Below are positions 8,348-25,409 of a stretch of DNA of 36,309 bases, one piece after another (position 1 is the first letter of the stretch; every line of letters begins with the position of its first letter). The translations under genes and the position numbers were made by a program. A model generated the notes under the pieces. The model had not been told where the DNA came from. It saw only the letters and a list, made by a program, of their open reading frames with translations, and ran no database searches. The stretch is from Candidatus Aenigmatarchaeota archaeon (GTDB lineage: Archaea; Aenigmatarchaeota; Aenigmatarchaeia; CG10238-14), in assembly GCA_038999265.1 (NCBI GenBank), contig JAWAAR010000005.1, positions 1 through 36,309 on the forward strand, in the 5' to 3' direction.

Positions 8348-8419
8348 TGGGTTCGAGGAGAATCGAACTCCTTTCTTCGCCGTGTGAGGGCGACGTCCTG
8401 ACCGTTAGACTACGAACCC
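8348..8419 (-). tRNA. tRNA-Val (anticodon CAC)
   Basis: The minus strand folds as a complete 72-nt cloverleaf. The acceptor is GGGTTCG/CGAACCC, the D arm GTCT...GGAC, the anticodon stem TCGCC/GGCGA with loop CTCACAC (anticodon CAC, reading GUG), the variable loop AGAA, and the T arm AGGAG-TTCGATT-CTCCT. The discriminator is A and no CCA is encoded. No intron is present. The 5' ten bases overlap the end of the EndoQ gene on the same strand, including its stop codon. The 3' end directly touches the stop of the convergent lipoprotein gene. No separate promoter is evident, so the tRNA may be processed from the EndoQ transcript or use a promoter inside that gene. Confidence 0.97.
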
Positions 8420-9669
8420 CTGAAATCAAATATTGTTTTCTGCTCTGGTCTTTTTAACTTTTCCTTTTCCCCATTAAATATAGGTCTTCCATACACACCA
8501 TCATATCCAGGATTAATATAGACTTGATTGTTTCTTATTTTATTTATAAAATTGGCAAGCCTCTCATCAAAACTATTCAATTCCTCCAACTGGGTCTCAA
8601 ATAATATCCTGAATTCGTTTCCAAACTTTTCTATTAATTTCTGATATTCATTCCAAACTTTCTTTGAATTTGGGCTGGTCTTAAAATAAAAACCAATTAT
8701 TTCCAAAAGAGGTATTGTATGTTTGAATGGTATTGAGTTTTTTGGTATATACCCTTCTGGTCTATCCGCAAGTTCTTCCACCCTTTGAAGAACACCGACC
8801 GTTAACTTCTTTCTGCAAACAGGGCATGTGTTCCTAAATCTAATTGCCTCTCTTGGTGAAAGCACAACTCCACATTTTCTGTGTCCAGTATAATGATACT
8901 TCCCCTCCTCCGGAAAAAATTCAATTGTGTATAAAAATCTTCTTTTATCCTTCTTTTTTATTGCATCAACCAATTCCCAAAAAGTGAGTCTTTTTAGTTC
9001 AAAAACATTGCACTCTCTGCCTATTTTATCGGGATATGGGGAATGGCAATCAGAGTTGCTGACAAGTGTATATCTATCAATTTTACTAACCCTGAAGTTC
9101 ATGGGTGGATCAGAGCTAAGGCCGGTCTCTATTGAAAATATGTGTTTTGTTTGATCTTGATAGCACTCCTCTATACTGTTAAAACCCGATTTTGATCCAA
9201 ATATCGAAAACCAACTTGTCCATGCATGCGCTGGGGTTATCATACAATCCCGATCTATTTCTATTAATTTTTCAACAAGCTCCGGCGAGGGAATATTTAG
9301 TATTGGCCTCCCATCGGAAGAAAGATCGCCATATTTAGACAATTCCTCGTTTATCTGGTCCACTATTTCAAAGCTGCTTGCATGGATTATGTGATGTATT
9401 TTTCTAGTTTTTCCATCTTGTTCATAAATTGTGGATACCTCGGTTGTAAGCATAAAGTTCATGTCATCATAAACAAAAAGTCCTGTATCTTCAATAGGTT
9501 TAAGTGTCATCTTTAATTCCTTCAACCAATAAGGATGGGTAAAATCTCCTGTACCTATTAGGTTAAGCCCTTTCATCTTACCGTATCTTGACAAGTTTTG
9601 TATATTCATCTGTGAGCTTGTCCCTCTCGAATATTTACTGTGGATGTGAAAGTCACAGAAAAACTTCAT
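8410..9669 (-). CDS. Endonuclease Q (PHP-domain repair nuclease for deaminated bases)
   Basis: The 419-residue protein matches the TIGR00375/EndoQ family. It has an N-terminal PHP metal-binding domain with D6-F-H8-I-H10, then 'GTGDFTHPYW' and 'PAHAWTSWFSIFG', later 'SNSDCHSPYP', and a zinc-ribbon region ('GHRKCGVV' then 'NTCPVCRKKL'). Next comes 'RPEGYIPKNSIPFKHTIPLL', a strongly conserved EndoQ segment. EndoQ, characterised in Pyrococcus, nicks DNA 5' of uracil, hypoxanthine, xanthine and abasic sites. The start ATG 9669 overlaps the upstream HAD gene stop (ATGA). The C-terminus ends inside the tRNA-Val gene: the last codons GGT-TCG-TAG are tRNA positions 2-10. It lies downstream of RPA and RadA in a repair-oriented gene run. 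Confidence 0.92.
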   Translation of the reverse strand: MKFFCDFHIHSKYSRGTSSQMNIQNLSRYGKMKGLNLIGTGDFTHPYWLKELKMTLKPIEDTGLFVYDDMNFMLTTEVSTIYEQDGKTRKIHHIIHASSFEIVDQINEELSKYGDLSSDGRPILNIPSPELVEKLIEIDRDCMITPAHAWTSWFSIFGSKSGFNSIEECYQDQTKHIFSIETGLSSDPPMNFRVSKIDRYTLVSNSDCHSPYPDKIGRECNVFELKRLTFWELVDAIKKKDKRRFLYTIEFFPEEGKYHYTGHRKCGVVLSPREAIRFRNTCPVCRKKLTVGVLQRVEELADRPEGYIPKNSIPFKHTIPLLEIIGFYFKTSPNSKKVWNEYQKLIEKFGNEFRILFETQLEELNSFDERLANFINKIRNNQVYINPGYDGVYGRPIFNGEKEKLKRPEQKTIFDFRGS

Positions 9670-10301
9670 TCAATCATCTTTATTTCTTCAAGAGATCTCA
9701 CATACCATTCCTCATTCATATATTCAGGGTATTTTTGTCTTGTATCAACTAGAATTGCCCTAAAACCCAAGTATCTTGAAGGAACTATATCCTGTTCCAA
9801 ATTATCTCCTATATAAACAACCTCCTCTGGTTTGACTTTCATCCTATCTAATATTAGCTGAAAAATTCTTGGATCAGGTTTTGCTATTCCAACCTCCCCA
9901 GAAATTATAATCTCATCAAAATATTTTCCAAGACCAAATCTTTCTATTGTTTCTCTCCCTTCTCTTCCAGCTGTATTTGAGAGCAAAACAAGTTTATATT
10001 TTTTCTTTAGTTTTCTCAATGTTTTAATTGTTGAAGGAAATAGTTTGACATTATTCCTTGCTTCTTCCCAAAGTTCCTTTATTTCTTCCATTTTTTTCAA
10101 TGGAATTCCATTTTTTCTCAAGAACTCCTCCAAAAATTCATAAAAAGTCATCTTTCTACCGAAAAAATTCTTGTCACAATAATCCCAAAATTCCTGTCTG
10201 TTATTAAAACCCAAAATATTTGCTATTCTTTCGTGTATCTCACTTGAAGGATCATAAACCAATGTGTTCCATAGATCAAAGGCAACAACTTTTATAGGCA
10301 T
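9666..10301 (-). CDS. HAD-superfamily hydrolase with a DxW motif I
   Basis: A 211-residue HAD protein with a helical cap between motifs I and II (C1-type). Motif I is 'AFDLWNTLVYD' (D9-x-W11), motif II 'LVLLSNTAG', motif III lysine in 'GIAKPDPRIF', and motif IV 'VYIGDNLEQDI'. The nucleophile Asp is present, but the second Asp that acts as acid/base in HAD phosphatases is Trp. A non-Asp residue there also occurs in haloacid-dehalogenase-type members, so a standard phosphatase activity should not be assumed. The frame is open to 10364, but ATG 10301 starts directly before the conserved first strand, and the extra upstream residues have no HAD character. Its stop overlaps the EndoQ start by four bases, indicating coupling; RadA lies 23 bases upstream. 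Confidence 0.85.
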   Translation of the reverse strand: MPIKVVAFDLWNTLVYDPSSEIHERIANILGFNNRQEFWDYCDKNFFGRKMTFYEFLEEFLRKNGIPLKKMEEIKELWEEARNNVKLFPSTIKTLRKLKKKYKLVLLSNTAGREGRETIERFGLGKYFDEIIISGEVGIAKPDPRIFQLILDRMKVKPEEVVYIGDNLEQDIVPSRYLGFRAILVDTRQKYPEYMNEEWYVRSLEEIKMIE

Positions 10302-10324
10302 AAAAATTATTTTAAAAGTAAAAA

Positions 10325-11302
10325 TTAATCCCTGATTCCTTCTGGGAGAACTCTGAAAACACATTCTCCTGCCGGTAAATCTGGGGAATCCATAACTTTG
10401 GCTATCCTTTTTTCTCCAGTAGACTTTCTCAAATAAACTCTATAGGTTGACTGGTGGGCAACTATATGACCACCGGCAGGGCTTGTCGGGTCACCAAATA
10501 GTATAGCTGGATTTGCCTGAACTTGATTTGTGACATATACTGCAAGGTTGTAAGCATCAGCAAGTCTTTGCAAGGCGTGGAGATGCTTGTTTAATTTCTG
10601 CTGCCTTGGTGCCAACTCACCCCTCCCCGAAAAGTCCGCACGAAAATGGGATGTGAGGCTGTCTACAATTATAAGTTTTATGTTGTTTTCCTCTATCATC
10701 TCATTTGCCTTTTCTATTAAGAACATCTGATGGTCAGAATTGTAAGCTCTTGCTACAAATATGTTTTTCAATACCTTTGGTGGATCTAGGTTTAGTGCAT
10801 CTGCGATCTGGATTATCCTGTTTGGTCTAAAGGTATTTTCTGTATCTATGAATAGGCAATTTCCATTCAGACCACCCTTATCCTCGGGTAGTTGAACATT
10901 AACTGCAAGCTGGAAACCAAGCTGGGTTTTACCAGATCCAAACTGCCCATAAACCTCGGTTATTGCCTGTGTTTCTATTCCACCCCCAAGCAATTCATCC
11001 AGATTCTTGCTGCTAGTTGTTATCTTTGCCATCTGTTGCCTTTGTTTCCAGACCTCATCAGCCGTGGTGAAACCCATTTTAAGCATTTGCCTGGCATTGT
11101 TGATTATTTTTGTGGCCGTAGCCTGACCAATCTCAAGTATTGATGCTATTTCCCCGGGTGATGATACAGCAAGGGCCATCGGGTCGGTGAACCCAAGTTC
11201 GATCAACTTCTCGGCAAGTTTAGGTCCAACCCCAGGTATATCTTCTAGGGTTATCTTCCTTTTGATTTCATCTTTTTTCTCAATAACCTTTTCCTTTACC
11301 AT
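10325..11302 (-). CDS. radA: DNA repair and recombination protein RadA
   Basis: This is a full-length (325 residues) archaeal RecA/Rad51 homologue. The N-terminal helix-hairpin-helix region ('[20 protein letters not shown]', about residues 19-60) binds DNA. F-T-T-A (78-81) is the FxxA-type polymerisation motif. Walker A is G-Q-F-G-S-G-K-T (119-126), Walker B lies in '[14 protein letters not shown]', and the L2 region follows '[10 protein letters not shown]' with '[17 protein letters not shown]'. The C-terminus '[13 protein letters not shown]' is typical. RadA forms filaments on single-stranded DNA and drives strand exchange. The start ATG 11302 overlaps the end of the RPA gene by 23 bases, so the two are likely coupled. 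The HAD and EndoQ genes follow. Confidence 0.97.
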
Positions 11303-12299
11303 CCAAACAACCTTCTATTTGGGTTAACAAGTTTTTGCATTCTCCCTTGATATCCAAGTCTCTGATATCATTTACAACAAACTCCAACCTATCAAACATT
11401 TTATTATTCTTTATTCTACCTGAAAGTATAACTTCTTTTCCAAGTGTGTTTTCTTTTATCATTGAAAGAGCTTCATCTGGGGTTAAATTCAACAAAACAG
11501 ATGGATCAACCCCAGAAAATTTTTGAGCCTGTTCCCTAAAAAATACAGCTCTTATATTGGATGTTCCATCATCTATTATTCCAGATATTATCATGACAGT
11601 TTCCGGCGTAACTTTGCCATGTTCCTTGCAAATATAGTTTTTTTCCCTTTTTTCAACAGTTAATCTGCAGGTTGGGCAGAGATGAAAAATAGGGGAAGTG
11701 TTGAAAAGTTGCACAAAATTTCCAACCACCTCAAAAAAACCTTCTTGGGCATCCTTGATTTCTATCCTCTTTGATATATTTTCTGGGGCAGATGGAATAT
11801 TGCTGTCATCTTCTTCTTTTTTTATCAGAGAATATTTAGGCAATCTTATCTCCAATCCTCCATAAATATTCTTCTTTGCAACACCATCGGTTATTGTAAT
11901 CACATCTCCCTCTGAAAGTGAGCCTGACTCTATCATTTCAACCTGCTTGTCCCATAGGGGAACCCTTATTTGACCTGTGCCATCGGAGATAAAAATGTTG
12001 CAAACCTTTCCAGAAGAACCGTCCTTTCTCTTGAATTCCCTGATGGGGGTTATTTGAGTTATCCTACCTTTAACTCTCACACCTTTTAACCCTTCTGTGA
12101 TGGTTTCAATCTTAATAGGTTTTCTCTCTATTGTCAAAAGGTTTATGCCGAGGTCTCTTGCAACCAAATGGCCGGCCCCTTCCATTGAAACTAATCCTAC
12201 AAGTTCATCATATTTCTTTTCTATCATCTCCTTTATCTCTTCTTCTGAAAAATTTGTTTTTTCTTTTATCTCTTTTATTATTTCATCCAGACTCAACAT
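11280..12299 (-). CDS. Replication protein A, single-stranded DNA-binding, multi-OB with zinc finger
   Basis: The protein (about 339 residues) has an N-terminal helical segment, then an OB-fold with '[20 protein letters not shown]', '[15 protein letters not shown]' and '[10 protein letters not shown]'. A second OB region follows, containing a zinc-finger-like insertion '[20 protein letters not shown]' (Cys/Cys...Cys/His) and '[20 protein letters not shown]'. This architecture matches euryarchaeal RPA41-like proteins. It protects and presents single-stranded DNA in replication and recombination, consistent with its overlap with radA. The reading frame also contains an upstream TTG (12311), but GGAG sits about six bases before ATG 12299, so ATG 12299 is chosen. 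It follows the PRC-barrel-like gene with a one-base gap. Confidence 0.9.
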
Positions 12300-12300
12300 T

Positions 12301-12768
12301 CTATTCTCCAACTAATTTTTTAAGCCAACCTTTTTCTTTTTCCTGGGGTATCCCTGAGGGAAACACATCCTTTATGGCATCAATAGTTAGTTGGTATCTT
12401 TTGAAAACATCGGTTTTTCTTATAGCATTAGGGTTTATCTCAGGGACTTTTAATTCATTTTTCAAAAGTATTATCGATTCACCTATTGCATTAACATCGG
12501 TTATTGGGATGAACATCTTCCCAGCGGCAGTCTGGCACACAAGGACATCTGTGTCGAACTTGTTTATTTTCTCCTCCTCTTCCTTGGTATATTTGACACC
12601 CAAAAAGGATACTTTGGTACCATAGAAATTTGTTATCCTATCTATACATATACCCTTTTTCCCAGCGGTTGTGTCCACCACTTCCTTTCCTATACAAGTA
12701 TTTGTCTCACTCATTGAATTCTTGATTGCCTCGGATATTCTTCCTATGAAATCGACAACCGTTTCCAT
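12301..12768 (-). CDS. PRC-barrel-like protein of unknown function upstream of RPA
   Basis: This protein of about 155 residues has a segment 'IGKEVVDTTAGKKGICIDRI' followed by an acidic loop ('YTKEEEEKINKFDTD') and 'KMFIPITDVNAIGESIILLK'. The pattern 'GK.V.d..G...G.v.di...fIP...V..iG..iiL' resembles PRC-barrel domains, small beta-barrels found in ribosome-maturation, RNA-linked and photosynthetic proteins. The C-terminal helix ('RKTDVFKRYQLTIDAIKDVF') ends in a basic-aromatic tail. The role is unknown; its constant partner here is the RPA-RadA pair. GTG 12774 is in frame but lies in the ribosome-binding sequence AGGGGTG, which points to ATG 12768. Confidence 0.6.
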   Translation of the reverse strand: METVVDFIGRISEAIKNSMSETNTCIGKEVVDTTAGKKGICIDRITNFYGTKVSFLGVKYTKEEEEKINKFDTDVLVCQTAAGKMFIPITDVNAIGESIILLKNELKVPEINPNAIRKTDVFKRYQLTIDAIKDVFPSGIPQEKEKGWLKKLVGE

Positions 12769-12834
12769 TAGCACACCCCTGAAATTGTATGGTAAGTAAA
12801 GGTAAAATATGTTAGAGTTATATAAAATAGAAAA

Positions 12835-13104: not shown

Positions 13105-16100
13105 TTAATATCGGGATAAAAGCCCCAATTCTTCAATTTTCAACCTATAATTTTCGAGAATATTTTTCAATATTTCCATAAGTTTCTTTTCATCTCCGTT
13201 GAATTTCTGCTCTATTTCACCCTGTTGTTTTTTTATTAAAACTGAACCTTCTGGAGAAGATAGGTTATATTGAAGAAAATTAGATGATTGTTGAATTTCA
13301 AGATATCCTTCATTGGTTTTTATTTTTGATATTGTGGTTTCACCAAACTGTTCGGTGTGGATTGTTATATTAGGAGAGGAATAATCCATAATATATCTTC
13401 CATCCTTTGATTTTATTGAGAATTTTTCCTTAAAGTTCTTTTCTTCTTTCAGAAAATTTTTGGAGGATATTGTAAATATTTTTTTTATAGGATATAATAT
13501 TTTTGTGAGTCCTGAAGTATCATAAACAGAGAAGTATGTATATTTGGGTCCAGAAGAAGGTTGTAAAAGTGCTACTGATACTAAATATTGGCCTGTAGAG
13601 TTGGTATTATTATAAATTATTTGATATAAGTTTCTTCCAGGTTTTATTGAAATTTCATTGTAAATTATTTCATCTTTTATATCTGTCTGGATCCTCAAAA
13701 GAAGAGTTGTATTTATTTCTTGACTCAATGTGTTATATATATCAGTTGTTATAATGGCCTTGCTTCCTTTTGACACATCTGTGGAGTTGACCTTCAATAT
13801 TTCTAATGGTGATATATACTTCAACGTTAAATTTAGTGAAAGAACATCCACCGACCCATTGGAGTGGTATATTGTTGGGATAAAGAATATATCAAAGGTT
13901 GTAGCATTGTCTAAGGTTTTTATTTGGTAATTCCACAAAACATTATCCGGGTAAGAGCCAGTGAAATTTTCAAAAGGATAGTCCAGGTCATAGATTATTG
14001 GAATATCTATGTTGTCGTATGTTATTTTGTGGATTGAATATGTTAATGAAATTAATGTTGAGTTTTCAGGAAGTTGTATGGTTTTTTTATAAATTGGAAG
14101 GGCAGGTTTGTTTGGTTCTGTTATATAGTCATCTGGATTCTCGAATACCAAGTTTTTAGAATTATTCAAATAAACAATCTTATAGGTTGGTGAAAATGAG
14201 TAGTTGAAGATAAATTGGTTATTTTCAATAAAAATTTCATCAGACTGTAAAGGCTGTAAAGAAGGATCAAAAGAAATCGATGGATCCCCAATTAGAAGAG
14301 TGTCATAATACTCCTTTTCATAGGTTTTATTGCTACTCATTTCCATTCTAGAATTTTCATAATTTCTGTTTCTTGTTTCTAACATAGCCCTTCCAACAGT
14401 TTTGTCAAAGTTTTTGAAAAAGTGGTGAGAGGTTTCACCAGATTGCATATTGTAAACTTTCCCAGTTTTTACAACCATTGATATTGCGCCCCTATTCAAT
14501 ACTTTTTCTGATATTCCTGAGCTGTTTGTATATCTGAGATAATAAAATAGTGGATATATTATCAGATCTGACGGGTCAAATTCTTCATAGGTTACCGAAT
14601 GCCAACTTGAATTTATTGGCAAGAGCCAATGGGTTTCGTTTCCAGGTGAAAAGTATAAAATTACTTGGTTGTTCTCAATTTCATTCAAAAGATTTTCTCT
14701 GTTCAGCTGGGGAAGATGTTTTGGGTATTCTGGCCTCAGTTCAATTAAACTTCTCCATGCCAATCTCCAATCAAATTCATAGAAAGAATATAGAGCTATA
14801 TCTCCAGCTTTTGCAAGAAGAATTATTTTACCTATTTCCCCAAATAGGGACTTGAATAGAATTGGGTAGGAAGAAGCCCCAACCACACCAATTTCCTTTA
14901 CTATATCTTTTAATTCTCTCAGGACCGAGATGTCAACCTGATCAAAATCAGCCCTTCTTTCAACAAGTCTGGTAACTTCGAAATCCTTGAATAACAGTTC
15001 AACTTCAGAATCTATAACATGGGGCATTGTGCCTCCTGGTATTAATGCGTCCCAATATTTGTATGGGGTATTATAGGAGGCTAATATTAGTGCAGTCTTT
15101 TCAGGGTTAAAGATTTTTGAATATTCAAGTTGATAAGAAATTGATTCTGGTGAACCCATCAAACGACCACAAGAAAGATCCTGGTATCCATCGAAATTTA
15201 TATCACAGTAAGGGGAATCTGTTATAATTTTCTTCAAAGGAGATGTTGGGTCTTTTACAGAAAAGTGGGGATTTCCGACTAATAAAAGATAAATTTCTTT
15301 TTCGAAACGATACTTGTCTGGCAGATTGAATTTTTTGATTTCTTGGATGAGTTTGTTTTTTTGGGAGTCAGGATTACCCGTTGTTATAATTACAAAAGCA
15401 TTATTTTTTCTTGAAAAACCAAAAGAAAACATGGATTCCTCTTCAGATATATCTGTTAGAATGAAATAATTTGGTTTTGGATTTTTGTCTCTGAAAAGAT
15501 TGTTAATGTTTTCTGCCGTAAGATTTATTATTTTTTCTGGTTTCAGATATTCGATCGTCTCATGGGAAGGCTCGAATAAAATTGGTACATTTAAGAACGA
15601 AGATTTTAAGGCGGTTTCCTTATCAGTGGGGATTGCTATGTCCGTTTTTTCAAAAAAGATTTTTACTAAAGTTTCACCCGAATCGACAATATAGTTTTCA
15701 TTTGAAAAAGTCAAGTTTGTACCAAGTTGAAATATTACATCTGGTCCATAATCCTCTATAAATTTATCTATCAATTTTCTTGACGAATTGTAAACCAGGG
15801 TTGGTTGATTTAAACTTGAAGATGTTATGTAATTTTTCCAATTCGTGTTTGTTATTATCAAGTTTTTTTCCTTTGGAGATGTTAGTATGAAAATTTCTTT
15901 TTGATTATGGATACTTTGGTTTTCAAAAAATAGTTCTAAATTGAGTTTTGATTTTCCAAGTAATTTTTTATTTATGTTTAATGTTAATGAGTATGCTCCA
16001 TTATTAAGATTTTGGAATTTTTTTGGCTGGATTTCCGTTTGATCCAAAAATATTTTGAAATTTTGGGCTGAAAGGTTGGATATTGGTTCATTGTAAGAAC

Positions 16101-17307
16101 TTATATTTAATTTTATTTCAAAATCTTCTTTTATTTTTACATGAGTTGGTGTTGAAAATTCAATTTCCAAAGGTTGATATCTTTGCTCTGGGCCTATTTT
16201 TATATATTTTTCTAGAGGATAGTCTATGACAATGCTCCAATTCAAGGCTCTTTCATATGCTTTTTCCAAAGATTCATTGGTTATTGCAATCCAAAGTCTT
16301 TTCCAGTTAGAAGGTCTTACCAAAGAAGGAAGAGTTCCATAATTATCAGTAGAAATCGATGGGTTTTGTACCATAAACCAACTACTTTCTGTTGTCCAAA
16401 AAGAACTTCCATTTGTTAAAATTACTATAAAATTTGTTCCTCTGGTTGTATTTGCAACCCCGAATCTAAAGTTAATTTTTTTTGAGTTAAATGCTGTTAA
16501 ATCAGATTTTTTAAAATCTTCATCAATATTTGTTCTATAATACAAATCTTCAATATTTATTGGGTCGTAAAAAAGATCTCTTCTTATCGTGTTACTAAAA
16601 TGTACACCCGATGAACCTTTTAGATATTCACAATATATTATTTCAGATTTGTAGCAAACTCTACAAAAAACAGAATCCAAATCGCTAAATCTTTCGAACA
16701 TTATACATGAAGTATTATTATATATCCATCTAAAATTCGGTAATGGTTTTGGATTTATAATTGATTCAAGTCCAAATGTTCCTGATCCGGCGTAATTAAT
16801 ATTTTCATTATTTTTTTCCAAAAATATAAATTTTCTAAAACCTTCAATGTTCTCAATTGGATTATCAATATCATAATCCAAATCATACAAATTTGTTCTT
16901 ATTCTCCAATCGTATGTTGGATTTAACCAAATAATTCCAGAAGAATTTTTAATTTCGTGATCAAATTTATCATAATATAAAGAGTATGTTTGAGATGAAT
17001 TTAACTCTGAAACCAAATTAAAACTTTTAATTTCGTTATTTTCATAAGTAATATTCCATATTTGAAAATCTGTTTCGATTCCAGTTGAGTTACAACTTCC
17101 TATTACCAATCTTAAAGAGGATTCTTTGGGTTTATTTATCCACCCAGAGACATCAAAGAATAGATCTATAGGTTCATGTATTCTTGGGATATTAGTAGGT
17201 TCATGTATCTCTAAATTTCTACACATATTCCAAGAATTATTCCACCATGATAGTGATGGGGAAAAAATTAAATTTATTACTATTAAAATTAAAATTTTTT
17301 TATACAT
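13105..17307 (-). CDS. Large secreted C25/gingipain-like protein with lost catalytic residues
   Basis: The 1400-residue product starts with a signal peptide ('MYKKILILIVINLIFSPSLS') followed by 'WWNNSWNMCRNLEI', like the start of DUF2341-type surface proteins. The middle resembles the gingipain (C25) catalytic region: 'FDGYQDLSCGRLMGSPESIS', later 'GNETHW' (889-894) and 'LIGDPSISF' (GDPS 1007-1010). In active C25 enzymes these align with the GHGSETAW loop and FGDPSL. The catalytic His of GHG is Asn or Gly-Asn here, and the segment expected to hold the Cys reads 'IIYPLFYYLRYTNSSG', with no Cys. After it, 'KPALPIYKKTIQLPENSTLI' (about 1060-1085) resembles a C25 propeptide segment, here C-terminal. 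More than 30 N-x-S/T sequons are visible by eye. No C-terminal anchor helix was seen. It is next to aglB, so it may be a glycosylated surface protein. Confidence 0.7.
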   Translation of the reverse strand: MYKKILILIVINLIFSPSLSWWNNSWNMCRNLEIHEPTNIPRIHEPIDLFFDVSGWINKPKESSLRLVIGSCNSTGIETDFQIWNITYENNEIKSFNLVSELNSSQTYSLYYDKFDHEIKNSSGIIWLNPTYDWRIRTNLYDLDYDIDNPIENIEGFRKFIFLEKNNENINYAGSGTFGLESIINPKPLPNFRWIYNNTSCIMFERFSDLDSVFCRVCYKSEIIYCEYLKGSSGVHFSNTIRRDLFYDPINIEDLYYRTNIDEDFKKSDLTAFNSKKINFRFGVANTTRGTNFIVILTNGSSFWTTESSWFMVQNPSISTDNYGTLPSLVRPSNWKRLWIAITNESLEKAYERALNWSIVIDYPLEKYIKIGPEQRYQPLEIEFSTPTHVKIKEDFEIKLNISSYNEPISNLSAQNFKIFLDQTEIQPKKFQNLNNGAYSLTLNINKKLLGKSKLNLELFFENQSIHNQKEIFILTSPKEKNLIITNTNWKNYITSSSLNQPTLVYNSSRKLIDKFIEDYGPDVIFQLGTNLTFSNENYIVDSGETLVKIFFEKTDIAIPTDKETALKSSFLNVPILFEPSHETIEYLKPEKIINLTAENINNLFRDKNPKPNYFILTDISEEESMFSFGFSRKNNAFVIITTGNPDSQKNKLIQEIKKFNLPDKYRFEKEIYLLLVGNPHFSVKDPTSPLKKIITDSPYCDINFDGYQDLSCGRLMGSPESISYQLEYSKIFNPEKTALILASYNTPYKYWDALIPGGTMPHVIDSEVELLFKDFEVTRLVERRADFDQVDISVLRELKDIVKEIGVVGASSYPILFKSLFGEIGKIILLAKAGDIALYSFYEFDWRLAWRSLIELRPEYPKHLPQLNRENLLNEIENNQVILYFSPGNETHWLLPINSSWHSVTYEEFDPSDLIIYPLFYYLRYTNSSGISEKVLNRGAISMVVKTGKVYNMQSGETSHHFFKNFDKTVGRAMLETRNRNYENSRMEMSSNKTYEKEYYDTLLIGDPSISFDPSLQPLQSDEIFIENNQFIFNYSFSPTYKIVYLNNSKNLVFENPDDYITEPNKPALPIYKKTIQLPENSTLISLTYSIHKITYDNIDIPIIYDLDYPFENFTGSYPDNVLWNYQIKTLDNATTFDIFFIPTIYHSNGSVDVLSLNLTLKYISPLEILKVNSTDVSKGSKAIITTDIYNTLSQEINTTLLLRIQTDIKDEIIYNEISIKPGRNLYQIIYNNTNSTGQYLVSVALLQPSSGPKYTYFSVYDTSGLTKILYPIKKIFTISSKNFLKEEKNFKEKFSIKSKDGRYIMDYSSPNITIHTEQFGETTISKIKTNEGYLEIQQSSNFLQYNLSSPEGSVLIKKQQGEIEQKFNGDEKKLMEILKNILENYRLKIEELGLLSRY

Positions 17308-17369: not shown

Positions 17370-19556
17370 CTAAAATTTAACCCTAAACAACCTAATCTCT
17401 CCATTAGAAAAAACAAGCTCAAAATGTTTCAACCCCTCCCCATCGAAGAAAAATAATTTTGTGAAAACGCTATCTTTTATAGAAGGCGAAAAATATATCA
17501 ATGATCTAAAATTCGGATCAACCCAAATTAATCCATCTATTTTTTGTAAACTTGTTGTTGAATTTGAAAGATTTATCCACATCTCCTTTCCTTGATTGTA
17601 AATTACCATATTGTTTATTATGTATTTGTTATTATAAACAGGAATTAGTTGATCCTCTTTTTGTATTATAGCCATTTTTAAACCAGAATAATCATAAACA
17701 TAAACTGGGTTCCCCTGCGTATCCTGTTGTATACCAGAAAAAGTGAAAATCCAGGGACACCAAACCCAAACACCCCTGCCTTGGTCGGCAAACTCTCCAC
17801 AAGACATCTGACCAGGTTCAGTTTTTGGTGTTGATGGGCAACAAACGCCTGGATTCCTTTCAAAATCTTGGGGTGAACTTATTGGGGCTCTAAATCCCCC
17901 AAAATAGTTCATCCAGGTAAATTTGCCTATCAAATCAGAGCTAGCTATAAAATACATTTCACTAGCAGGTTCACATGCCTCTTTTGGTACAATATCCCCG
18001 TATTTCTTCTTAACTTTCTGGCATTGTTCATCTGTTAAAACCATATACTTCTTTAATAATTCAACGGCTTCTGTCTCATTTGTAGTAGTCATAATTCTCC
18101 CCATATCCTGTATTCTTGTATCATGGGGATATGGTAGGCATTCATTGACACCGCAATGCGCTCCATCTGCATGAACTCTTAAACCTGTATAGCCGGCTAT
18201 TATATGACCTGGATCCCACCAAGTTGCGATTATAGCCTTTGAATCGGCATTCTTTTTTAACCATTCCAACATCTCTATCCAATTTTGGCTGACTTCCATA
18301 CCACTTGCCTGGTATGCGTAAACTAATGCATCTGAAACGAAAATAATTGTAAGCAGGAAGACCAATCCAAATATAGTTATACCTAAAATATCTCTCTTAA
18401 GCAATTTAACAAGATTCCCGACAACATATCCTGCTGCTGTTGTAGCCGCGCAAGAAAAGAGTAAGGAAAATCTGACACCATGAAGTATTAAATAAAATGT
18501 GAGGGCAGACCACATAAAAAGAAAAATCTCCACTGGCTCAACTTTTGTTTTTACAATAAGTTTATATATAACAAGAGAAGGCAGCCCAACCAAAAAAAGT
18601 ATTATCGGCCCCAAACCGATTCTTCCAGCTACAGATAGAAAGCCACTTTTAGTGAATATATTAATTGGCTGTAGCTCTGCCACAGAAACATTCACTATGC
18701 CCCCCTTTCCTTGCCCAGTAAAACCCAAACCTATCATAACAAAGTTGATCACTGTTCCAACTTTTAATATGAATCCCAAAAAATTCAAAGTTACTATAAA
18801 AACCAATAATGGTAATATTATATCTTTTGTTCCGATCCATGTTTTTTTAACATCAATCTTTTCTCCAAATATCAAATTTTCTATCAACCTATAAACAAAA
18901 AATGTTGGTATGAATAAAAGGAAGAAAAATGAAATGTACCATCCAAAATACCAGCTTAGAATGAAAATTATATTAGAAATAATAGCCAAGACATAGTATT
19001 GTATTTTCCTCTTCTTAAGGGCCAAGAATATTGTTGAAATGCAAATAAATGTATAAAATACAACAACAACATCAGTATCGCAATAACCAGCCATAGAAAC
19101 CCCAATAAATGTCGGTGTCATTGAAGCAAACAAACCTGTCATAAATCCTCCCCATTTGTTGGTGAGTGTTTTCCCCAAGAAAAATGCCGCTACACTTCCA
19201 AGCCCCACCATTATAGCAGGGGAAAGTTTTGCAACTTCCATAAATTCAGTTTTTGGAGAAAACAATGTTATTATTTTGTAGAAAAATATCATAGTGTATT
19301 CCCAACCAACAGGAGTCATGTTTGGTCTTCCAGGGGGAAAAAAACTCAAAATATCCCATTTTGGAGGTTTCATGTTGTTTTCCAGAATTGTTTTGGCGTA
19401 TCTATAAAACCACCAAGGATCATAATCTAAAATAGTCTCAGTTTTTATCGTTCCCAACCTTGACCACATAGAAAAAAAGAACAAGAATAATACCATTAAT
19501 GCTATTATAATAGAGTCCGATGAGATTTCTATTTTCTTCTTTTTCATTTTTTTCAT
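17370..19556 (-). CDS. aglB: Dolichyl-phosphooligosaccharide-protein glycosyltransferase AglB (STT3)
   Basis: The 728-residue oligosaccharyltransferase has a multi-spanning N-terminal half (about 13 hydrophobic helices) and a soluble C-terminal domain. Metal-binding acidic motifs are D44-Y-D46 in the first outer loop and D160-T-D162 in the second. The flexible external loop carries S-V-A-E (291-294), an SVSE/TIXE-type motif. The acceptor-binding motif is W-W-D-P-G (446-450), where most homologues have WWDYG. AglB transfers lipid-linked glycans to Asn in N-x-S/T sequons on the outer face of the membrane. A TATA-like AATTTAAA (19577-19584) is centred about 25 bases before ATG 19556, predicting a leaderless start. 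The neighbouring genes encode a sequon-rich secreted protein downstream and glycan-building enzymes upstream. Confidence 0.95.
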   Translation of the reverse strand: MKKMKKKKIEISSDSIIIALMVLFLFFFSMWSRLGTIKTETILDYDPWWFYRYAKTILENNMKPPKWDILSFFPPGRPNMTPVGWEYTMIFFYKIITLFSPKTEFMEVAKLSPAIMVGLGSVAAFFLGKTLTNKWGGFMTGLFASMTPTFIGVSMAGYCDTDVVVVFYTFICISTIFLALKKRKIQYYVLAIISNIIFILSWYFGWYISFFFLLFIPTFFVYRLIENLIFGEKIDVKKTWIGTKDIILPLLVFIVTLNFLGFILKVGTVINFVMIGLGFTGQGKGGIVNVSVAELQPINIFTKSGFLSVAGRIGLGPIILFLVGLPSLVIYKLIVKTKVEPVEIFLFMWSALTFYLILHGVRFSLLFSCAATTAAGYVVGNLVKLLKRDILGITIFGLVFLLTIIFVSDALVYAYQASGMEVSQNWIEMLEWLKKNADSKAIIATWWDPGHIIAGYTGLRVHADGAHCGVNECLPYPHDTRIQDMGRIMTTTNETEAVELLKKYMVLTDEQCQKVKKKYGDIVPKEACEPASEMYFIASSDLIGKFTWMNYFGGFRAPISSPQDFERNPGVCCPSTPKTEPGQMSCGEFADQGRGVWVWCPWIFTFSGIQQDTQGNPVYVYDYSGLKMAIIQKEDQLIPVYNNKYIINNMVIYNQGKEMWINLSNSTTSLQKIDGLIWVDPNFRSLIYFSPSIKDSVFTKLFFFDGEGLKHFELVFSNGEIRLFRVKF

Positions 19557-19652: not shown

Positions 19653-20684
19653 TTATTTGCGAAATCCTCTTGTCATATCACAACCAGAACAAATTTTTGG
19701 AATTTCTCCTCTCAAAAATTTTTCCCTCATATTTTTATGTATATCATCATTCCAAACCTCATCCAAATTTTGTTTAAGTATATTTCCAGTTGAAAAATTT
19801 ACTATACTGCAACATGGTGTCACATACCCATCCCATCTAATGTAAATTTTTTCCCAAAGCCAAATACAGGGTTTAAATGTTTTGTTGTAAATAAATTGTA
19901 ATTTTAATCCAACTTCCTTTGCTCTTTCCAAAGCACATGAAATATAGTAGTATGATTCTGGGTCAGACTCTTCAATTTTCTGTGGTTTATTAAAATCAAT
20001 TGGATATTCACCGCTTATAGCTATAGGTTGGAAGGTCAAACAATCAAAACCTATTTTGTGAGCAAATTCAACAAATTTTGGTAGCTCTTTTATATTATCT
20101 TTCATGAGAACACTAGTTAGATATATTGACATATCACTTTTCATTCTATTTCTTGTTCTAACTAAATTTTTAACATTATTTACAACAGATTCAAAATTTG
20201 ATCCAACTCTTATTTTTTCATATGTATTTTTATCAACACTATCAATTGAAATTGAAATACTACTCATTCCAGATTCGATGGTTTTTTTTATATTCCTATA
20301 ATTTAATAAAGTGCCGTTAGTGGTTGTTAAAACAATAATTCCTTTTTTATTGGCATATTGGGCCATTTTAAAAAAATCATTGTTTAGATAGGGTTCACCG
20401 AGGCCTTGAAGCATAATTATCATCAATTGGGGTATTTTATCAATTATTTCTCTGAAATTGTCAAAACTCATGTCTCCTATTTTTTTATCAAAAAAGGAGG
20501 AGTTACGAGCACACATTGGGCATCTAAGATTGCATTTTCTGGTTGGCTCTATTTGGGCAAAAAATGGTCTTGATCTGACCTTAACAGATCTATTATAAAA
20601 TTTTGAAATTACCAAATTCGGAACTTTTCTAGGTAAATTTAAACCTAATTTTAATAATTTTTTATATTGCCTCAAGGTGTACAT
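19653..20684 (-). CDS. Radical SAM protein with SPASM-type C-terminal cluster domain
   Basis: The 343-residue enzyme has the radical SAM cluster motif C51-N-L-R-C55-P-M-C58, followed by 'LQGLGEPYLNNDFFKMAQYA' and 'VLTTTNGTLL'. The C-terminal part has further Cys ('FKPCIWLW', 'VTPCCSIV', 'KICSGCDM') that would bind auxiliary iron-sulfur clusters, as in SPASM/Twitch proteins. Such enzymes use 5'-deoxyadenosyl radicals to modify peptides, sugars or other small molecules. The substrate here is unknown. It stands 96 bases upstream of aglB on the same strand and faces away from the FkbM methyltransferase, so a role in glycan or glycoprotein modification is a reasonable guess, not shown by sequence. 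Confidence 0.85.
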   Translation of the reverse strand: MYTLRQYKKLLKLGLNLPRKVPNLVISKFYNRSVKVRSRPFFAQIEPTRKCNLRCPMCARNSSFFDKKIGDMSFDNFREIIDKIPQLMIIMLQGLGEPYLNNDFFKMAQYANKKGIIVLTTTNGTLLNYRNIKKTIESGMSSISISIDSVDKNTYEKIRVGSNFESVVNNVKNLVRTRNRMKSDMSIYLTSVLMKDNIKELPKFVEFAHKIGFDCLTFQPIAISGEYPIDFNKPQKIEESDPESYYYISCALERAKEVGLKLQFIYNKTFKPCIWLWEKIYIRWDGYVTPCCSIVNFSTGNILKQNLDEVWNDDIHKNMREKFLRGEIPKICSGCDMTRGFRK

Positions 20685-21703: not shown

Positions 21704-22756
21704 TTAATTTTGGGATATTGATTCATAAATTTTCAAGTAATTTTCTATAAATCTTTCCCAAGTAAATTTTCTGGCTATTTTTCTATTTTTATTACCTATT
21801 TCTTTGGCAACATTCTCATTCTCTATTAAGTATTTTATTGACCTTATCAATTGGTCAGTATCTTTAGGTTGTATTTTTGGACCTTCTTGACCTATATCTA
21901 CTGTTGAAATAGTCGCGCAACCAGATGCCATAGCCTCCAAAAGGGATATCCCAAAACCTTCAGTGAGCGAAGGTAAGCAAAAAATAAGGGCCCGATTATA
22001 TATCTCTATAAGTGTCTTTCCAACCAAAGGCCCTGTAAAAATGATGTTTTTTTCAAAATGCATCTTCATCTTATCTATTTCCCTTCCACCACCAACTATA
22101 AGAAAATTTATATAAGGAAGTTTTCTAGCCACATTCAAAAGATAATTTAGACCTTTTATTTTGGTCTGAGGTTTATCCATATTGAAACTTCCAACAAAAA
22201 GTACAAATGGTTCCTTTTTTATTTTCATCTGATATTTTTCCCAATCTATTCCTGGTTGAACCATGTGGATTCTTTTCTCATCTATACCAATTTTTAATCC
22301 TATGTTTTTTGAATTGTAATTTTGGAAGACAATTGCATCATAAGGTTTAGTTAGAATTATTTTTTCACCCAATTGAAAAAAAGGACCTAATATAGGACCC
22401 CTCACATCTCTCCAATAAGAGCCAAAAATATGATGGATATGACAACAAATTGGAATTTTAAGTTTCCTAGCAGCCTTCCAAGAAGGTAGTGCCATATTTC
22501 CACTGCTTGTCTGTATGATATCAACACCCGCGGCCTCCTCTAAAACTTTTTTAAATTCCAAATTCATTAAATATCTGTTTTTAGGTATTCTAATGGTTCT
22601 TATTCCATCATATTCTTTTATTGCTGGGTCACCAGAAGTTAGTACTTTTATTTCGTGTCCTCTTTCTCTCAGAAGATGAATCATCTTCAGTGTTAATTTT
22701 TCCCCCCCGCCAACTACATCTGGAGGAAATAATTCATGTGTAAAAAGGATTTTCAT
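21704..22756 (-). CDS. Glycosyltransferase family 4, GT-B fold
   Basis: A protein of about 350 residues with the two Rossmann-like domains of GT4 enzymes. The N-terminus 'MKILFTHELFPPDVVGGGEK' contains the acceptor-side Gly-rich loop. The C-terminal donor domain has 'FVLFVGSFNMDKPQTKIKGL', 'LIVGGGREIDK' and 'SLTEGFGISLLEAMASG', the last holding the E-x7-E motif that binds the nucleotide sugar. These are retaining transferases; the sugar and acceptor cannot be told from sequence. ATG 22756 is used, since the frame's earlier codon at 22762 is TTG. It lies 41 bases downstream of the small methyltransferase gene and belongs to a four-gene minus-strand group from 25327 to 21704. Confidence 0.9.
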   Translation of the reverse strand: MKILFTHELFPPDVVGGGEKLTLKMIHLLRERGHEIKVLTSGDPAIKEYDGIRTIRIPKNRYLMNLEFKKVLEEAAGVDIIQTSSGNMALPSWKAARKLKIPICCHIHHIFGSYWRDVRGPILGPFFQLGEKIILTKPYDAIVFQNYNSKNIGLKIGIDEKRIHMVQPGIDWEKYQMKIKKEPFVLFVGSFNMDKPQTKIKGLNYLLNVARKLPYINFLIVGGGREIDKMKMHFEKNIIFTGPLVGKTLIEIYNRALIFCLPSLTEGFGISLLEAMASGCATISTVDIGQEGPKIQPKDTDQLIRSIKYLIENENVAKEIGNKNRKIARKFTWERFIENYLKIYESISQN

Positions 22757-22797
22757 GTTCAACCTATTATAATATTAGAATTTTAATATATTTTGAT

Positions 22798-23355
22798 TTA
22801 ATCTATTTTTTCAAGTTCAAAAAACAGTTCCTGAGGTGGTATAAAAAAGTTAAATAAAAACACCTCACAAAATTCCTGAACCTTATATGATAGGTTTATT
22901 ATTGGGTTTAAAATATTAAGAAAATGTGTATATTTTGTTATTCCCATATTAAATTTCCTTTTTTTTATCAAAAACAATTTCTGATAATCCAAATTATGGC
23001 CGCTGTGGAAAGAATTTAATGAAAAAAATCTGACATGGTATGGATGTTTTGCTAGATAAGATTGCCCGTATGGAACTTTGATTATTAGTTTACCCTTTGT
23101 TTTTAATACTCTATGAATTTCTTTCATTAATTGATCAAAATTTTGTATATGTTCAAGTACATGTGAAGCATATACACCATCAAATACTTTGTCTTTGAAT
23201 GGTAGATTGCCATTTTCTAAATTATAGAAAATATCAACATTTCTTATTTTTTCTTTATCCAAAGTTAAAGAATTTTCAAATAATCTTTTTCCCCCACTCC
23301 CTATTTCTAGAAATACCTTTTTATTAGTCAAACTTTTGGATAACCTTTTTCCCAT
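22798..23355 (-). CDS. Class I SAM-dependent methyltransferase (Methyltransf_11-like)
   Basis: The 185-residue protein has an AdoMet-binding loop 'VFLEIGSGGKRLFENSLTLD', the post-I acidic region, motif II-like 'FDGVYASHVLEHIQNFDQLM', and 'IHRVLKTKGKLIIKVPYGQS'. This is the usual small methyltransferase found in surface-polysaccharide clusters. The sequence after the core contains 'YHVRFFSLNSFHSGH', common in these cluster enzymes. The start overlaps the upstream GT2 gene by 28 bases, indicating cotranscription and likely coupling. The acceptor is unknown; methylation of a glycan or a lipid head group is plausible. Confidence 0.82.
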   Translation of the reverse strand: MGKRLSKSLTNKKVFLEIGSGGKRLFENSLTLDKEKIRNVDIFYNLENGNLPFKDKVFDGVYASHVLEHIQNFDQLMKEIHRVLKTKGKLIIKVPYGQSYLAKHPYHVRFFSLNSFHSGHNLDYQKLFLIKKRKFNMGITKYTHFLNILNPIINLSYKVQEFCEVFLFNFFIPPQELFFELEKID

Positions 23356-24272
23356 ATTCCCATTCCCATTCCAACTAAATACATTAACATTGTAATTATA
23401 TCAAATATTGGTGTGAAAAAGGATTCCGGATATTTTGTAATTTTATACATTCGAAAACTTCTATATATTTCCATTAACAAAAACGGTATTAATAAAATTA
23501 TTCCCAATTTTTTAAAAATACCACTTCCAAAAAATAAAGACATGGAAACTATTGGCAACCAACATAAAAATGGAAAAATTAACTTTCTTAATGTTTCAAG
23601 TGGATAGTCAGGGAATAAATAAATTATTGATTTTCCCGCCCATTTATTCTGCCTCCACATTTGACCAATATTTTCAGGGTATTTATGGTAAACAATAGCA
23701 TTTCTGTATCTTATTATTTGACCCTTCTTATTGTATTTTTTGTAAGCCCTGTATGTGAATTCCCAATCATCGTAATAACCATATTTTGGATTTATAATAC
23801 CTATCTCTTTTATTATTTTTTTCTTGAATAACCTGAGAAAGGCAAAATCGTACTGGTAGGTTCCAAGATTAGATCTCAAAAAATGCATCTTGGCCCAGAA
23901 TTTGTTTTTATTCATTACTCTTTCCTGTGGATCAAGGCCAACCACAAAAGGATTCAAAATCACTGGGAGCATTTTTTTCAATAATTTCCTCTCGACTCTT
24001 TGATCCGCATCAACAAACAATATCAACTCCCCTTTACTTTTCTTTATTCCCAAATTTCTAGCGACGCCAACGCCCTTGTGGGGCCCTTTGATAATTTTTA
24101 TTTTAAACTTTTTTGCTTTTTCAACTGTTTTATCTGTTGAGCCATCATCTATCAGTATTATTTCCAATTTTTTCTTAGGATAATCTAAACTTGTGACTGA
24201 TTTTAAACAATCTTCTATAACATCCTCTTCATTATAAGCAGGAATTATCACAGAAACTTTTGGATATCTCAT
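23328..24272 (-). CDS. Family 2 glycosyltransferase with C-terminal membrane helices
   Basis: The N-terminal GT-A domain (residues ~5-220) has 'VSVIIPAYNEEDVIEDCLKS', 'IILIDDGSTDKT', and D-A-D in 'LILFVDADQRVE' that binds the metal and nucleotide sugar. Further on are 'YDDWEFTYRAYK' (acceptor-side catalytic acids) and a QNKW motif 'MWRQNKWAGKS', similar in place to the Q-x-x-R/K-W of processive enzymes. Two or more hydrophobic helices follow (residues ~235-310), so it is membrane-associated. The gene overlaps the preceding GT4 by ATGA (24269-24272) and the next methyltransferase by 28 bases, forming one transcription unit. Donor and acceptor are not determinable. Confidence 0.88.
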   Translation of the reverse strand: MRYPKVSVIIPAYNEEDVIEDCLKSVTSLDYPKKKLEIILIDDGSTDKTVEKAKKFKIKIIKGPHKGVGVARNLGIKKSKGELILFVDADQRVERKLLKKMLPVILNPFVVGLDPQERVMNKNKFWAKMHFLRSNLGTYQYDFAFLRLFKKKIIKEIGIINPKYGYYDDWEFTYRAYKKYNKKGQIIRYRNAIVYHKYPENIGQMWRQNKWAGKSIIYLFPDYPLETLRKLIFPFLCWLPIVSMSLFFGSGIFKKLGIILLIPFLLMEIYRSFRMYKITKYPESFFTPIFDIITMLMYLVGMGMGIWEKGYPKV

Positions 24273-25327
24273 AACAACTCCTCATAAACTTCTAATGTTT
24301 CCTTAGCGCACATCTCCCATGTAAATTTTTTCGAATATTCTAAAGCTTCCGAAATTACCTTATTCTTATAATTTTTGTTTGTAATTAACTCATTTATTTT
24401 TTCTGCAACATCATCCAAACTATTGCATACAATCGTTTTTTTCCTAACTTCCTCTGGTATTTTACCATCTTTTAGTGTGATGACAGGCACCCCGCATCTT
24501 TGGGCTTCCATTATCGGCATCCCAAATCCCTCATATTTGGTTGGAAATACAAAAACATCAAAAGAATTGTAAACTTCAGTTAATTTCCCATATTCAACAA
24601 AACCCTTGAAATAAACATTTTTAAGTCCAAGATCATTTGCCAATTTCAGGAGATTATTGTATTGATTTTTCAAAAATGGATTAAACAAAGGGCCATATAT
24701 GAACAATTCTGTATCAAAATCCTGAAACTTGTCGCAAAATATTTTGTAACTTTTTATTAGAAGATCTACCCTTTTTCTTGGGATTAAACTCCCTATATAT
24801 CCAATTCTTATCCTTTCTCCTTTCCTTCTCACTTTTAAAGGTTTGAATTGCTCATTTATACCAAAATTAACAACCTCTATTTTCTCTTTAGGTATTTTCA
24901 AAAATTTTATCAATTCATCTCTCACTAATGTGGAAATTGTTATTATTTTTGTGGTTCTCTTTGCCATATTATAAACATATTTCCCATAAATCGTAGCTAA
25001 AATTGGTGATGCCGAATCTCCTAATTTATGCTCAATAAGCGGTATTATGTCAGGTATTGTAACCACACATCTTTTTGTGAAAAGTGGTGTATAAATTGAT
25101 TGTCTCGCAGTTATTGCATGAAAGATTGTTTTATTTTTGAGTCTCTTCAGAACATTAACCGGTATGACAAAGTTATCATGAATTATTGGAGTTTTAATTT
25201 CAGATTTAACCACAATCTCTACATCTACACCAAGTTTTAATAATTCATCAAATAATTCAGCACCATATCTCGGCATTCCTTCTCCAGTTGATTTGGCTAT
25301 GTGATAAGCAAGGAGGCAAACCTTCAT
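24269..25327 (-). CDS. Glycosyltransferase family 4, GT-B fold (second copy)
   Basis: A protein of about 352 residues. The N-terminal domain has 'GEGMPRYGAELFDELLKLGV' (Gly-rich acceptor loop), and the donor-binding domain has 'RIGYIGSLIPRKRVDLLIKS', 'LKNVYFKGFVEYGKL' and 'FPTKYEGFGMPIMEAQRCGV', the last with the GT4 E-x7-E motif. It is different enough from the GT4 at 21704-22756 to be a separate specificity, not a recent duplicate. ATG 25327 gives a typical GT4 N-terminus; an in-frame ATG at 25339 adds four residues and cannot be ruled out. The gene leads the minus-strand group GT4-GT2-methyltransferase-GT4 and is divergent from the membrane transferase at 25410. Confidence 0.9.
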   Translation of the reverse strand: MKVCLLAYHIAKSTGEGMPRYGAELFDELLKLGVDVEIVVKSEIKTPIIHDNFVIPVNVLKRLKNKTIFHAITARQSIYTPLFTKRCVVTIPDIIPLIEHKLGDSASPILATIYGKYVYNMAKRTTKIITISTLVRDELIKFLKIPKEKIEVVNFGINEQFKPLKVRRKGERIRIGYIGSLIPRKRVDLLIKSYKIFCDKFQDFDTELFIYGPLFNPFLKNQYNNLLKLANDLGLKNVYFKGFVEYGKLTEVYNSFDVFVFPTKYEGFGMPIMEAQRCGVPVITLKDGKIPEEVRKKTIVCNSLDDVAEKINELITNKNYKNKVISEALEYSKKFTWEMCAKETLEVYEELL

Positions 25328-25409
25328 ACTAATCCCCATTCCTAATCACTTTAAAATTCTAAAAGATTAAAATTTATAATTCCATTTATTTCAACAATTG
25401 GTGTTTGGT

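Follow-up and report, generated by a model that had tools for sequence, protein, structure and literature searches.

A family of C25-like proteins lacking the catalytic dyad, often encoded beside glycan assembly genes in archaea

Can a protein with the fold of a gingipain but without its catalytic residues have been retained by archaea, and if so, in what capacity? The question is raised by the window studied here, a stretch of 36,309 nucleotides from a Candidatus Aenigmatarchaeota genome (assembly GCA_038999265.1, contig JAWAAR010000005.1), which carries on its reverse strand a gene for a protein of 1400 amino acids (positions 13105..17307, ATG start, no internal stop). The original prediction described the product as a pseudoprotease of family C25, possibly recruited as a surface scaffold. 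The features of the protein and the upstream glycan genes located below lie on the same strand.

C25 ancestry and domain organization

The sequence landmarks of family C25 are present in the expected order, i.e., CGRLMGSPESIS at residues 713-724 (15171-15136), PGNETHW at residues 888-894 (14646-14626) and LIGDPSIS at residues 1005-1012 (14295-14272). The window protein scores against PF01364 (E = 1.6e-6, 28.1 bits vs. a curated cut-off of 23), and when the profile of its family was compared with that of the phylum's intact C25 domains, the match had a probability of 99.2% (E = 2.9e-19), with PGNETHW falling over the GHG loop. Scaffold residues common to intact C25 proteins are retained (D697, R715 and the GDP motif at 1007-1009). 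None of the NCBIfam models matches the window protein and sequence searches of the PDB returned zero matches. A model of the core (residues 388-1262, built from 29 sequences; mean pLDDT 90.6, pTM 0.89) exhibits a gingipain-like fold. Its top PDB match in Foldseek is gingipain K (Kgp, 4RBM; E = 2.2e-7, TM 0.51 by target), next come the RgpB propeptide chains 4IEF_A, G and C (5.6e-6 for 4IEF_A), and the Kgp propeptide 5MUN is also among the matches. Many glycoside hydrolase family GH2 structures were returned as well, presumably reflecting the beta-sandwich domains.

The protein starts with a predicted signal peptide (residues 1-20, MYKKILILIVINLIFSPSLS; 17248..17307), read by eye from the sequence, and an N-terminal DUF2341-like domain (about residues 21-118; 16954..17247) that was assigned by alignment to relatives; DUF2341 itself scores in four of 15 family members, the window protein not being one of them. 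A separate model of residues 21-470 was unreliable (pLDDT 49.6) and left uninterpreted. In the core model, a beta-sandwich domain (residues 388-475; 15883..16146; pLDDT about 90 or more) and a repeated beta-alpha domain (residues 481-612; 15472..15867) lie ahead of the peptidase fold. The profile positions of the latter domain are matched by several further C25 proteins from the phylum as well (E values from 4e-14 to 6.5e-6); its interpretation as a CWB2 cell-wall-binding repeat was dropped for lack of Pfam support. C25 subdomain A (residues 613-735; 15103..15471), delimited by profile-profile comparison and the core model, contains D697, Y700 and R715 as invariant residues in the family alignment. 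Subdomain B (residues 736-1012; 14272..15102), recognized by Pfam, profile-profile comparison, the core model and Foldseek alike, contains a helical insert peculiar to the family (residues 793-855). It is followed by a propeptide-like beta module (about residues 1026-1166; 13810..14232), an immunoglobulin-like beta domain evident from the core model (residues 1167-1262; 13522..13809) and a C-terminal module (residues 1265-1400; 13105..13515). The portion conserved throughout the family extends approximately from residue 460 to 1166. Elsewhere in the genome the C-terminal module recurs in a small protein of its own with a hydrophobic N-terminal segment (G000:C30:1627-1983), and related small proteins are present in other genomes of the phylum.

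Loss of the catalytic dyad across a family under selection

The histidine of the GHG loop is replaced by Pro888 in the window protein (14644..14646), and in the 29 members of the family the position is never occupied by His, being filled instead by P, K, Y, I, L, F, W, M, V or N. His893 within PGNETHW is kept in only nine of the 29 relatives and is therefore not a relocated catalytic histidine. The position of the catalytic cysteine is taken by Tyr926 (14530..14532), with His in 13, Tyr in eight, Ser in five and other residues in three of the 29 sequences (H, Y, S, A, R and I overall) and Cys in none. This position was set by the preceding strand, PLFYYLRY being matched to PIVIIDAC of an intact relative, and hhalign alone shifts the stretch by a few residues; the conclusion that the cysteine is lost does not depend on this choice, because the window protein has no Cys at all after residue 713. 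An alternative Cys-His dyad was looked for and is neither present nor conserved among the 29 members. Together with the gingipain-like fold, this bears out the pseudoprotease reading.

A sequencing artifact or a lineage-specific oddity can be dismissed, as both residues are missing in all 29 sequences. Relatives with intact residues do exist, among other C25-like proteins of the phylum as well as in archaea outside it. Both residues are invariant in 19 other aligned C25 domains of the phylum, a selected set from which L040, L049, L051, L056 and L063 were left out (the dyad of L063 is ambiguous). One of the omitted proteins, L051 (G126:C76:5270-6100), seemingly also lacks both His and Cys (YESMACYDW, INAPNTC) while falling outside the clade described below, and this appears to be a second, independent loss. 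Within clan CD, pseudo-orthocaspases offer a parallel, their His-Cys dyad being replaced by Tyr and Ser (PMC6426788); they belong to another family, are bacterial and are not known as secreted giant glycoproteins.

Searches at the level of family, order, class and phylum combined with gene retrieval recovered 29 related genes including that of the window. Of the 156 genomes covered in the phylum, 28 contain them, so that full or partial family members occur in 27 genomes besides the one studied. A contig scan with the whole window protein detected one close relative only. In a tree of 50 domains, the 28 usable members of the dyad-less family are located on one side of a branch with an SH-aLRT value of 98, i.e., on sequence grounds they form one clade. 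For three pairs of family members dN/dS was 0.35, 0.12 and 0.21, while two further pairs were saturated at synonymous sites; values of 0.12-0.35 indicate purifying selection on the family. The long open frame, the relatives in many genomes and these ratios led us to reject a decayed pseudogene. Members lacking the dyad are also found in another archaeal group (L145, L146 and L147), where the His position is occupied by I, R and I, respectively (SGIGNSREW, QGRGNSNNW, QGIGDGNNW), and the Cys position lacks Cys in all three; L148, a divergent member from the same order, is likewise devoid of the GHG histidine. In L147 the gene consists of two overlapping open frames (L147:2663-4582 and L147:4554-7070) within a single-contig genome, which may be due to a frameshift, a sequencing error or a real split. 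We found no description of a pseudo-C25 family in the open literature, most subscription journals being beyond the reach of the search.

The propeptide-like module and its position

The segment downstream of the peptidase part had been likened to a C25 propeptide, and this resemblance is substantiated by an hhalign match to the N-terminal propeptide of L035 (E = 4.1e-8) and by the Foldseek matches to the RgpB and Kgp propeptides. The module of the window protein does not match PF08126 (Propeptide_C25) by itself. Unlike that domain, which by definition precedes the catalytic domain and is cut off during maturation, and which Pfam places ahead of C25 in the canonical relatives L035 and L036, it is situated after the peptidase fold.

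The order is thus indeed the reverse of that in gingipains, as proposed originally, yet it is not tied to the loss of the active site. Three C25 proteins from archaea outside the phylum (L150, L151 and L153) differ from the window protein in having an intact GHG histidine and catalytic cysteine and share with it the sequence of C25 domain, propeptide-like module and immunoglobulin-like domain. In L151, PF01364 matches at residues 558-857 and PF08126 weakly at 894-1015; L153 can be aligned co-linearly with the window protein from subdomain B through the module to the Ig-like domain that follows. Because proteins with an intact dyad have the same order, a reversal as part of the change to a pseudoprotease was rejected; the arrangement is therefore an older archaeal architecture that exists also without active-site loss. 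Overall, the window family resembles Kgp and RgpB (family C25, clan CD; PF01364, PF08126) in the fold of the catalytic domain, the DxxY...GR and GDP landmarks, the beta-rich propeptide module and an Ig-like domain that follows the core on its C-terminal side. It differs from them in the family-wide loss of His and Cys, the module after the peptidase fold, the helical insert, its archaeal origin, its richness in sequons and its other N- and C-terminal parts.

Surface features, genomic context and possible function

The window protein contains 34 N-x-S/T sequons vs. 18.2 ± 3.8 in shuffled sequences and 15 for the reversed motif, and an excess is also seen in most relatives. One sequon, N890-E-T (14632..14640; alignment columns 890 and 892), adjoins the lost histidine, and a sequon at the N890 site was counted by hand in 16 of the 29 family members. 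The N-terminal heads vary among relatives (DUF2341, CBM96 and weak PQQ/FG-GAP-type matches), and some have a transmembrane segment at the C-terminal end. On the basis of its signal peptide and sequons, the protein is probably exported and heavily N-glycosylated.

An AglB/STT3 oligosaccharyltransferase (17370..19556; PF02516, E = 1.6e-23) is encoded 62 bp upstream of the gene on the same strand, and beyond it lies a cluster of genes for a GT4 glycosyltransferase, a methyltransferase, a GT2 and another GT4 glycosyltransferase (21704..25339). Where the immediately upstream gene was visible, it encoded GT4, GT2, STT3 or a flippase at 12 of 16 loci of the dyad-less family vs. none of 16 other C25 genes of the phylum (Fisher's p = 1.6e-5), in a test that ignores kinship among the genomes and with glycosyltransferase profiles seeded from neighbors of the family itself. 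A Pfam check of ten of the 16 control neighbors revealed no glycosyltransferase. In nine of the 12 pairs the two genes are oriented divergently, with 50-115 bp between them; at a thirteenth locus (L026) a polysaccharide deacetylase gene is immediately upstream. Outside the phylum, L145, L146 and L147, which did not serve as profile seeds, have a divergent glycosyltransferase cluster upstream as well; the predicted ends overlap in L146 and L147, and the distance is 38 bp in L145. Next to the intact L150, L151 and L153, no glycosyltransferase was found in the short stretches examined.

The most cautious statement compatible with these sequence-derived data is that of a family-wide pseudo-C25 protein under selection, predicted to be exported and connected with glycan assembly by its gene neighborhood. 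Beyond this, we consider it rather probable that the protein, a catalytically dead member of the C25 fold that is exported and probably heavily N-glycosylated, has a structural or ligand-holding role in the envelope and is tied to the neighboring surface-glycan machinery. That it acts as a surface scaffold carrying or holding glycans, as anticipated in part by the original prediction, is favored to a similar degree; the scaffold role would follow from the signal peptide, the excess of sequons, the exchangeable heads, the C-terminal membrane anchors of some relatives and the glycan-gene neighborhood. The picture suggests an old protease turned surface-coat protein. The dyad-less C25 domain would pack with the propeptide-like module into a single rigid stalk or binding unit, outward recognition would fall to the exchangeable N-terminal domains, and the glycans that the protein carries or holds would be built or attached by the glycosyltransferases or oligosaccharyltransferase encoded next to it. 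Adjacency alone is compatible with a protein that may carry, bind or modify glycans. More tentatively, and with somewhat less than even expectation, the clade could be a dedicated extracellular part of surface-glycan assembly in small-genome archaea, kept next to a glycosyltransferase operon in different archaeal groups, in which a protease fold was recruited to present, anchor or organize the glycan. A C25 fold linked to surface glycans is familiar from PorU, the C25 sortase of the type IX secretion system, which joins cargo to anionic lipopolysaccharide and needs its catalytic cysteine; the window family differs in lacking this residue.

Three other explanations were weighed. The conserved residues E844 (29 of 29 members), D846, R780, E783 and R785 (each of the latter two in 27 of 28) and K998 (27 of 29), or the histidine most common at the old Cys position (13 of 29), might have created a new active site for a different reaction, e.g., on glycans. 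Conservation of this strength in a family-specific set that also comprises Y745 and W847, with E844-F-D846-W847 forming a motif (14767..14778), fits such an enzyme, as does the glycan-gene neighborhood. On the other hand, the conserved residues could equally be structural, and the old catalytic positions differ by clade (Tyr, His, Ser, Ala, Arg, Ile), unlike a single conserved nucleophile, so that we regard a new enzyme as unlikely. An ordinary S-layer-like structural glycoprotein, with incidental C25 ancestry and a glycan neighborhood generic to envelope genes, seems equally improbable to us: secretion signal, sequon richness and modular beta domains agree with it, but glycan genes are not generically close to large secreted proteins, since none of the 16 other C25 genes has them as neighbors, and occurrence in 28 of 156 genomes, many of them incomplete, is a patchy distribution for a coat protein supposed to be universal. 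Least probable is a pseudopeptidase with a regulatory or inhibitory effect on an active C25 peptidase, via the propeptide-like module or as a decoy, for although the propeptides of gingipains act in trans as inhibitors of their cognate enzymes (PMC3677877) and genes with and without the dyad co-occur in some genomes (e.g., G078, G079, G082, G139 and G140), the window genome (97% complete) has no second match to PF01364, and neither do those of gene-bearing close relatives.

The glycan-associated scaffold is thus the reading we retain for what would be a family-wide archaeal pseudo-gingipain, present in more than one archaeal group and connected through gene order with the glycosylation of proteins and of the surface. 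If this link holds, the family would provide a concrete entry point into surface building by tiny, mostly uncultured archaea, and it would illustrate cleanly how a protease scaffold and its propeptide module can persist after catalysis is lost.

Two further features of the locus are recorded here. A gene for a radical SAM protein with a SPASM domain (19653-20684) adjoins that of the oligosaccharyltransferase. Downstream of the pseudo-C25 gene, genes for an RPA-like protein, RadA and a HAD phosphatase (8410-12774) follow, and these are conserved in the same downstream position in close relatives.
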